Below are positions 52,673 to 54,603 of a stretch of DNA of 64,000 nt, in pieces. How positions within the stretch are numbered: the first letter of the stretch is position 1; each line of letters begins with the position of its first letter. The notes beneath the pieces were generated by a model. It saw only the letters and a list, made by a program, of their open reading frames with translations. It had not been told where the DNA came from and searched no databases. The stretch lies in contig JALHMS010000011.1 in assembly GCA_022843925.1 (NCBI GenBank), forward strand, positions 1-64,000, read 5' to 3'. Made by a program: the position numbers and the translations under genes. Source of the DNA: Burkholderiales bacterium. GTDB taxonomy: Bacteria; Pseudomonadota; Gammaproteobacteria; Burkholderiales; Ga0077523.

Positions 52673-53254
52673 TCAGCCCTTGCGATCGGGGTCGGACGGG
52701 TCGTCTTGCGAGGCCCCGGTGGCGAAGGGTGAGAAGGGAAACGTGGAGAACATGTTCCGCGCCTGCTTCTGCAGCTGCTGCTGCATCTCGACGAATGTGT
52801 TGGCGCTCTGTTCCAGGTAGCTGCCCATGAGCCCCTGGATGGCCGGGCCCTGCATCTTCACGAACTGGTTCCAGGCATCCGACCCCACCACAGGGTTCTC
52901 GCCGAACTTGGCCAGCGACTGCTGCTGCAGCTTCCGCTGGATCTCCATGAACGTCTGGATGTTCTTCTCGAGGTAAGAACCCATCATGCCCTGCATGGCA
53001 TTGCCGTAGAACCGGATGATCTGCGAGAGCATGTCGCTGGAGAACATCGGTGCGCCGGCGGTTTCCTCTTCCAGGATGATCTGCAGAAGGATGCTCCGGG
53101 TGAGATCGTCGCCCGACTTCGCGTCGAGGACCTTGAACTGCACCTGCTCCAGGACGAGCGCCTTGACGTCTGCCAGCGTGATGTAACTGCTCGTTGCCGT
53201 GTCGTACAGGCGGCGGTTCGGATACTTCTTGATCAGTCGAAGTTCTTCAGCCAT
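52673..53254 (-). CDS. phaR: Polyhydroxyalkanoate synthesis repressor PhaR
   Basis: The 193-residue regulator has the PhaR DNA-binding domain at its start ([20 protein letters not shown]) and two copies of the granule-associating repeat. The repeats are [20 protein letters not shown] near 88 and [20 protein letters not shown] near 139. PhaR represses phasin and its own gene and leaves DNA when it binds nascent PHA granules. GAGGGA precedes the ATG at 53254. The 605-bp region upstream holds a candidate noncoding RNA on the opposite strand. Confidence 0.93.
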
Positions 53255-53383
53255 GGATCCCTCGTAGCGGCGACTTTATGGAGGAGGCCTGCCGCGGGCC
53301 GGATGACGAGCGGTTCCCGCCTCGTTGTTATGGGGTCGCTCATGGACTCTAGCGGAATCATGGTGCGACGCGCAAAAAAATCG

Positions 53384-53412
53384 TTGACAGCGAAATCGGT
53401 CACGCCTAGCAT
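53384..53412 (+). promoter_or_regulatory. Sigma-70 promoter pointing away from phaR
   Basis: A perfect -35 box TTGACA (53384-53389) and TAGCAT (53407-53412) are spaced 17 bases apart. The predicted start is near 53419, followed by a TGC/GCA-rich imperfect dyad, TTGTGCGCTGCAGCACGA (53418-53435), that could be a regulator site. No protein gene lies downstream on this strand before the terminator at 53782. Confidence 0.6.
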
Positions 53413-53418
53413 CGGGGT

Positions 53419-53782
53419 TGTGCGCTGCAGCACGACATCGGTGAAGCACCAGTTGTAAGAAAACATTACTCTGGCGTATCATGAAGTTGGGTTGCAAAGC
53501 TAGAGCTGGTCTCAATGGCGCAGCGAACAAGATTGTTGCGCGGGTGGCGGAGTGCCACCGTTGGCCAGACATACGATCGTCGAACGTTGCAGACCGCACA
53601 AAACGCCGCAGACGAACGCGGCACCAGATTCGGCCAGACGAAGACCCGAAGTCTTCGCGAAACGGATGTCCCGGCAGGTGGCGCATGCAGCCGCCGCAGA
53701 GGAATCCCGGCCAGACGGCTCCTCCCCCTTTATCGAAAGATAAAGGTTCAACCCCGGCGGGTTTTCTCGCCGGGGTTTTTTT
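53419..53782 (+). ncRNA. Candidate structured noncoding RNA in the phaR-phaB gap
   Basis: A transcript from the upstream promoter (or a second one, TTGTAA-N18-TATCAT at 53453-53482) would run to the terminator near 53782. It has consecutive hairpins at 53544-53558 (GTGGC/GCCAC, loop GGAGT), 53605-53622, 53639-53657 (CGAAGAC/GTCTTCG) and 53727-53746 (CCTTTATC-GAAA-GATAAAGG), then the terminator. GGCCAGAC recurs three times (53563, 53632, 53709). A pyrimidine-rich anti-Shine-Dalgarno-like CTCCTCCCCC lies at 53719-53728. No conserved coding frame exists, and no match to RNase P, tmRNA or 6S core motifs was recognised. Confidence 0.5.
53750..53782 (+). terminator. Intrinsic terminator of the candidate RNA
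   Basis: AACCCCGGCG (53750-53759) pairs with CGCCGGGGTT (53768-53777), followed by a run of seven T residues (53776-53782). The T-run is on the plus strand, so it terminates rightward transcription, not phaB. Confidence 0.88.
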
Positions 53783-53859
53783 ATTCGCTCGCTTGGAGGC
53801 GACCGGCCTCCGCGCGGCGGTCTCACCGGGCGCCGCACGACGTGGGGCGTCATGAGGGA

Positions 53860-54603
53860 TCAGGACATGTGCTGGCCGCCATTGATCGAAATGTTCGCCC
53901 CGGTCAGGAAGGCCGCTTCGTCCGAAGCCAGATAGATGATGAGACCGGCGACTTCCTCGGGCTTTCCGAGGCGGCCGACCGGGATCTGCGGGACGATCTT
54001 CGTGTCGAGGATGTCCTTCGGAATGGCCGTCACCATCTTGGTGCCGATGTAACCGGGCGAGATCGTGTTGACTGTCACCCCCTTCTTGGCCACTTCGAGG
54101 GCGAGCGCCTTCGTGAAACCGTGCATCCCGGCCTTTGCCGCCGAGTAGTTGGTCTGACCGAAGGCACCTTTCTGCCCGTTCACCGACGAGATGTTGATGA
54201 CGCGACCCCAGCCGCGATCGACCATCCCGTCCATCACCTGCTTCGTCATGTTGAAGCAGCTGTCGAGGTTCGTGCGGATCACGGCATCCCAGTCCGCCTT
54301 GCCCATCTTCTTGAAGGTCATGTCGCGCGTGATGCCGGCGTTGTTCACGAGCACATCGACGGCGCCGACCTCCGCCGTCACCTTCTCGACCGCGGCCGCG
54401 GCCGAATCGAAGTCGGTCACGTCGCAAGGCACTGCGTGGAAGTCGTATCCCTTGGCCTTCATGGAGGTTACCCACGCATCGGCTGTCTTGTTGCTCGGTG
54501 AGTAGGTGGCGACCACGGTGTACCCCTGGTCCGCCATGCCCGTGCAGATGGGTTCTCCGAGTCCGCCCATTCCTCCCGTCACGAGTACCACGCGCTTTGG
54601 CAT
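53860..54603 (-). CDS. phaB: Acetoacetyl-CoA reductase
   Basis: The 247-residue short-chain dehydrogenase has the NADPH-binding VVLVTGGMGGLGEPICTGM, VLVNNAGITRDMTFKKM, the catalytic Ser/Tyr/Lys in INISSVNGQKGAFGQTNYSAAKAG and the C-terminal FLTGANISINGGQHMS. This is the PhaB pattern. It reduces acetoacetyl-CoA to (R)-3-hydroxybutyryl-CoA. AAGGAG precedes ATG 54603. It follows phaC by 14 bases on the minus strand, so both are one operon. Confidence 0.94.
   Translation of the reverse strand: MPKRVVLVTGGMGGLGEPICTGMADQGYTVVATYSPSNKTADAWVTSMKAKGYDFHAVPCDVTDFDSAAAAVEKVTAEVGAVDVLVNNAGITRDMTFKKMGKADWDAVIRTNLDSCFNMTKQVMDGMVDRGWGRVINISSVNGQKGAFGQTNYSAAKAGMHGFTKALALEVAKKGVTVNTISPGYIGTKMVTAIPKDILDTKIVPQIPVGRLGKPEEVAGLIIYLASDEAAFLTGANISINGGQHMS

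Follow-up and report, generated by a model that had tools for sequence, protein, structure and literature searches.

The window, that is, the whole 64,000-nt stretch of DNA analyzed, represents contig C11 of a betaproteobacterial genome of 5.57 Mb. The named congeners, e.g., Ga0077526 and Ga0077532, are uncultured assemblies, as are nearly all genomes behind the comparison. The window contains phaR and phaB, whose identities passed the curated NCBIfam cut-offs; both are located on the minus strand and are separated by 605 bp. On the opposite strand of this gap an earlier note had placed a near-consensus sigma-70 promoter, an anti-Shine-Dalgarno-like stretch, and a textbook terminator, and all three were confirmed at the positions it had given. 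The following features were recognized, the bit score of the module referring to the covariance model R1:

52673–53254, minus strand: phaR, PHA synthesis repressor (TIGR01848, 176 bits, cut-off 109), divergent from the sRNA
53362–53374, plus strand: TGC/GCA dyad GGTGCGACGCGCA upstream of the −35 element, candidate PhaR operator
53384–53412, plus strand: sigma-70 promoter TTGACA-N17-TAGCAT, predicted start near 53419
53418–53433, plus strand: TTGTGCGCTGCAGCAC, PhaR-type TGC-N3-GCA dyad spanning the start site, candidate PhaR operator
53419–53717, plus strand: 5′ part of a primary transcript predicted at ~364 nt, specific to the lineage and lying in place of the presumably lost phasin gene
53453–53482, plus strand: second promoter, present here and not common to relatives
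53718–53783, plus strand: double-hairpin sRNA module, predicted mature RNA of ~65 nt (84.8 bits)
53719–53728, plus strand: CTCCTCCCCC, mostly unpaired anti-Shine-Dalgarno seed, invariant in 14/14 training sequences
53727–53746, plus strand: hairpin 1, CCTTTATC-GAAA-GATAAAGG, based on fold and covariation
53750–53782, plus strand: intrinsic terminator (hairpin 2), a 12-bp stem and a T tract, with most of the compensatory changes
53860–54603, minus strand: phaB, acetoacetyl-CoA reductase (TIGR01829, 378 bits, cut-off 302), convergent with the sRNA

When 100 relatives were searched at the DNA level, all congeners proved to carry the last ~65 nt, and so did members of three further families. In all 11 congeners the module is near-invariant and occupies the same phaB-phaR gap on the opposite strand. 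Within the gap, conservation is limited to these last ~65 nt (53718–53783) and to the promoter together with the TGC/GCA dyads on either side of it. When this genome was compared with phasin-less congeners, identity was 85%–95% in the module, 69%–87% in the promoter and dyads, and 47%–69% in the middle, against a shuffled level of 54%. For the 5′ part (53419–53717), the value of 69% was obtained with G006, and the other phasin-less congeners gave 47%–56%.

Folding relative to shuffled sequences yielded z-scores of −4.6 for 53416–53784, −3.5 for its 5′ part, and −6.2 for the last 67 nt; no shuffle of 53416–53784 folded as well as the sequence itself. Sequence conservation is confined to the 3′ element; the hairpins upstream of the module combine a stable predicted fold with a diverged sequence. 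The three copies of GGCCAGAC are present as claimed (at 53563, 53632, and 53709). Since relatives have 0–2 copies (G006 keeps two) and some 8-mer occurred three times in 26 of 2,000 Markov simulations, a chance of about 1%, these repeats do not belong to the conserved part. Two promoter-like sites were found, compared with 0.4 ± 0.6 in shuffles. The second of the promoters proposed earlier does exist at 53453–53482, but it is not conserved in relatives and is therefore probably due to chance. Both the repeats and the second promoter were rejected as functional parts because relatives do not conserve them.

Alignment, one of the checks suggested in the earlier note, revealed an invariant CTCCTCCCCCTTT followed by hairpin 1 and then by the terminator with compensatory changes. 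In the window, CTCCTCCCCC occurs once, at 53719, and most sequences outside the training set have CTCCTCCYCC as the seed. In 55 PHA-linked sequences, 98.2% of the cells were paired and 16 of 18 pairs had double-sided changes, in an alignment fitted to the covariance model, which favors the covariation count; five pairs with double-sided changes were found in an unfitted alignment of 14 sequences. Double-changed cells numbered 153, whereas shuffles gave 30 and slid structures no more than 38, and sliding the structure along the 55-sequence alignment abolished covariation. No conserved reading frame crossing the terminator was found, in agreement with the earlier statement that none fits. Although short frames cross the region, a small-protein mRNA or a functionless chance structure is hardly credible given the lack of a conserved frame, the strong covariation, and the invariance of the seed. 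From these comparative data the RNA is very likely real; the covariation thus upholds the proposed small RNA as a ~65-nt double-hairpin module, not as a conserved RNA of the whole ~400 nt. No second copy of the module was found in this genome, and at curated Rfam thresholds the whole window yielded only two tRNAs.

In six congeners, a phasin-like frame stops 2–29 nt before the module. Three of the four full-length congener frames were clearly above the cut-off of Pfam Phasin_2 (PF09361) and one was just above it; a phasin fragment at a contig end of a congener scored below. At 35 loci in several families, a phasin gene divergent from phaR stops 2–129 nt upstream of the module, which thus follows the coding sequence directly and shares its terminator, as in 3′-UTR-derived sRNAs, while in the window it follows no coding sequence and forms a stand-alone RNA gene. 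Model R1 matched 131 of 399 genomes in the order, representing 73 of 159 genera. All 39 matches of at least 47 bits were PHA-linked: 24 were located behind a Phasin_2-type phasin, 1 behind a PhaF-type gene, and 14 were phaR-divergent without a phasin. Of these 39, 24 were neither training sequences nor copies, and all 24 were PHA-linked. Matches below 47 bits were mixed and included members of RF02278. A scan of 84,980 species with a fixed pattern independent of R1 gave 41 terminator-bearing matches, a tally that omits one further match, and all 41 were PHA-linked (31 behind phasins and 10 phaR-divergent without them). Nine chance pattern matches, nearly all outside Betaproteobacteria, had neither a terminator nor PHA genes.

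The idea that all phasins carry the module was rejected: it was present at 2 of the 31 phasin loci inspected (L141 and L168), and most phasin genes lack it, having ordinary terminators. Judging from the loci compared, the module belongs to the phaR-linked phasin, and it is highly probable that the RNA derives from the phasin tail. A literature search joining phasins with UTR-derived sRNAs found no prior report of a phasin-tail sRNA.

Some individual loci had additional features. At L058 (G389, 1327–2064) the module is located behind a PhaF/PhaI-type granule protein gene (TIGR01837) and not behind a Phasin_2 phasin, and an apparent acyl-CoA-binding protein frame adjoins this gene. The phasin and module have a match to 6S RNA and a cobalamin riboswitch close by in G158 (L077, 1780–1961 on the plus strand and 898–1103 on the minus strand) and in G031 (L141, 930–1111 on the plus strand and 52–257 on the minus strand). 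The G185 genome has three matches; among them, two module-like copies at L065 (about 2001 and 2874), separated by ~870 nt and located close to a contig end outside PHA genes, are possibly a sibling sRNA pair. In the congener G010, an additional copy of the module without PHA linkage (L060, 2000–2064, 46.4 bits) directly follows a frame of another kind and may be another 3′-UTR case.

Neither a phasin frame nor its remnant was found in the window, and the two other phasins encoded elsewhere in the host genome are not followed by the module. Phasin-less loci occur in several families, with predicted stand-alone transcripts of 111–521 nt (~364 nt here). The stand-alone type is also represented by a culturable relative, strain GR16-43. 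On the PhaR tree, phasin presence switches eight times, and six of these switches are forced by well-supported branches. Within one genus, G058 and G101 have almost identical modules and share the promoter, while the phasin frame is missing in G058. Repeated loss of the phasin is preferred as the simpler account, since the alternative would require a phasin to have been inserted several times between promoter and module; this parsimony argument was made on the PhaR gene tree and not on a species tree. The comparison therefore suggests that the phasin was lost repeatedly, this lineage included, with the promoter, dyads, and RNA being kept.

Since the module, terminator included, is located directly behind phasin stops, it could be a mere phasin terminator and mRNA-stabilizing 3′ UTR, a leftover with no trans function in phasin-less genomes. 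Such an origin is unlikely to be the whole explanation, because the most invariant part is the CUCCUCCYCC seed, which is unpaired and not needed for termination. Phasin-less congeners keep the promoter (69%–87%) and the module (85%–95%) with a middle mostly at the shuffled level, the same outcome is seen in several lineages, and the module is missing behind most other phasins, whose terminators are ordinary. A trans-acting RNA is thus preferred.

Phasin-bearing and phasin-less loci have a common promoter design, comprising a dyad upstream of −35, TTGACA, the −10 element, and a TTGTGC-N2-TGCA dyad at +1, and in phasin-bearing relatives the phasin gene is driven by the same promoter type as the sRNA here. 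The upstream dyad GGTGCGACGCGCA is retained in nearly all congeners, whether the phasin gene is present or absent, and an upstream dyad was found in 39 of 48 phaR-divergent promoters. Of 48 promoters, 47 carried at +1 the TGC-N3-GCA operator expected in a PhaR regulon, versus 8 of 1,105 control segments from the same gaps. PhbF, the PhaR homologue of Herbaspirillum, is a repressor of phaP1 whose motif is TG[N]TGC[N]3GCAA, and PhaR of Ralstonia was reported to have two binding positions at phaP, one over the start site and one upstream of −35 (PMC3206438); the +1 dyad agrees with both the PhbF/PhaR site and this promoter layout. Upon granule formation PhaR departs from the phaP promoter (PMC3079617). 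Because of the +1 dyads, the published PhbF/PhaR sites, and this departure, control of the locus by PhaR is likely, and the suggestion of the earlier note that the dyad is a PhaR target gains comparative support (47/48 promoters).

PhaR-type repressors autoregulate (PMC3206438), and here phaR is divergent from the sRNA, so that the dyad is also part of its own upstream region and its conservation could serve phaR. If the dyads had only this role, the trans-acting sRNA would answer another signal, as the related S17 and NcS27 do. This explanation is quite unlikely: however far away phaR is, the sRNA promoter has the dyad at +1 in 47 of 48 cases, and phasin genes, which are the classic target of PhaR, are driven by this same promoter. 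PhaR control thus remains the favored reading.

The best Rfam match of the window was anti-hemB (RF02837), with 29.7 bits over the full model and a threshold of 49.5 bits. For RF02278 (Betaproteobacteria toxic small RNA; NcS27/bdhR1 of Burkholderia cenocepacia) the window scored 20.0 bits, where the threshold is 50 bits, and none of 20 further PHA-linked loci reached it. Like the module, RF02278 has two hairpins, the second being the terminator, and an unpaired CU-rich anti-Shine-Dalgarno stretch, so that hairpins, stretch, and terminator are all found here; carbon-uptake genes are the predicted targets of NcS27, as of the module (PMC5688073). Model R1 detected the RF02278 members L076 and L081 at 40–43 bits, but these loci, unlike the window type, have no PHA linkage, and in the PHA type, unlike RF02278, the seed runs into CUUUAU. 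The module is related to RF02278 and RF02837 but falls below their thresholds, is tied to PHA genes, and has apparently been freed repeatedly from a coding gene.

NcS27 acts by anti-Shine-Dalgarno pairing and is tied to the shutdown of carbon use (PMC5688073, PMC10987360). The Hfq-linked S17 of Bordetella pertussis also relies on such pairing, and RNase E cuts its 190-nt form to a 67-nt form (PMC11722255). It resembles the module in that a long precursor gives a ~67-nt RNA with a 5′ CU-rich anti-Shine-Dalgarno stretch followed by a terminator (PMC11722255); here the predicted precursor is ~364 nt and the module is ~65 nt. However, S17 is located beside coq7 and is controlled by BvgA, and no link to a phasin or PhaR is reported in PMC11722255. 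MmgR of Sinorhizobium meliloti is likewise an sRNA of PHB metabolism and is negatively controlled by AniA (PhaR) (PMC8401924), but it is alphaproteobacterial, is a reported phasin repressor, and has not been described as the 3′ UTR of a phasin mRNA. Nothing in this analysis indicates sequence kinship between MmgR and the module.

In this genome, 25 sites fitted GGGGAGGA-N4-12-ATG versus 9 for the reversed control, although Shine-Dalgarno-like strings are common by nature, which weakens such counts as evidence of targets. The best-pairing start region was that of a metabolite/H+ symporter gene, a predicted target. Pairing energies of −19.5 to −25.4 kcal/mol were obtained in six of the eight genomes of the genus having this gene (best background, −17.2), and the site was absent in the other two, G001 and G002. 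The PHA genes were rejected as targets: the start regions of phaR (−8.8 kcal/mol), phaB (−11.5), and phaC (−6.3) paired unremarkably against a background median of −10.0, and the proposal that the RNA tunes PHA genes found no support. The alternative offered with it, a report on carbon status, is supported comparatively, every strong match being PHA-linked. Hfq is encoded in the host genome. Repression of carbon uptake by the RNA is plausible.

Lying on the strand opposite to phaB and phaR in the window, the RNA would be antisense to any read-through transcript of the two genes and could in principle act in cis, pairing with such a transcript or with the phaR leader and titrating either partner. 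This is very improbable: the module and its divergence from phaR are kept at L038, L041, L051, and L052, where phaB points the other way, and at other loci where phaB is not a neighbor. Overlap with phaB is therefore not a conserved feature, and action in trans is preferred.

Besides what comes from sequence comparison, i.e., the module, its structure, the PHA linkage, the shared promoter with dyads, and the repeated absence of the phasin, we infer PhaR binding, transcription, processing, a role of Hfq, and targets, which could be combined as follows. When the cell contains little PHB, PhaR would occupy the dyads around the promoter and keep it shut. PHB granules, once formed, would bind PhaR, and the promoter would open. 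The transcript would stop at the terminator and then be cut just upstream of CUCCUCCCCC, giving a short RNA. Together with Hfq, this RNA could pair with ribosome-binding sites of the GGGGGAGGAG type and repress mRNAs of carbon uptake and catabolism, thereby telling the cell that its carbon store is filling.

We therefore consider it fairly probable that the locus encodes a ~65-nt anti-Shine-Dalgarno double-hairpin sRNA from a PhaR-controlled promoter, which forms the phasin 3′ UTR in most relatives, stands alone on a ~364-nt precursor here, and signals a filling carbon store. With somewhat less assurance, we favor the broader view that phasin-tail sRNAs under PhaR control form a family not described before, which across Betaproteobacteria couples the filling of the store to post-transcriptional repression of carbon uptake, and that the RNA and not the phasin is kept by selection.

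Riboregulation of PHB storage has been called undeciphered in the best-studied betaproteobacterial producer (PMC8401924). If the RNA is switched by PhaR, it would be a direct output of granule formation, making the sensing of a full store testable and providing a handle for bioplastic strains. The locus would also represent a clear comparative case of a 3′-UTR sRNA that became independent when its coding gene was lost.
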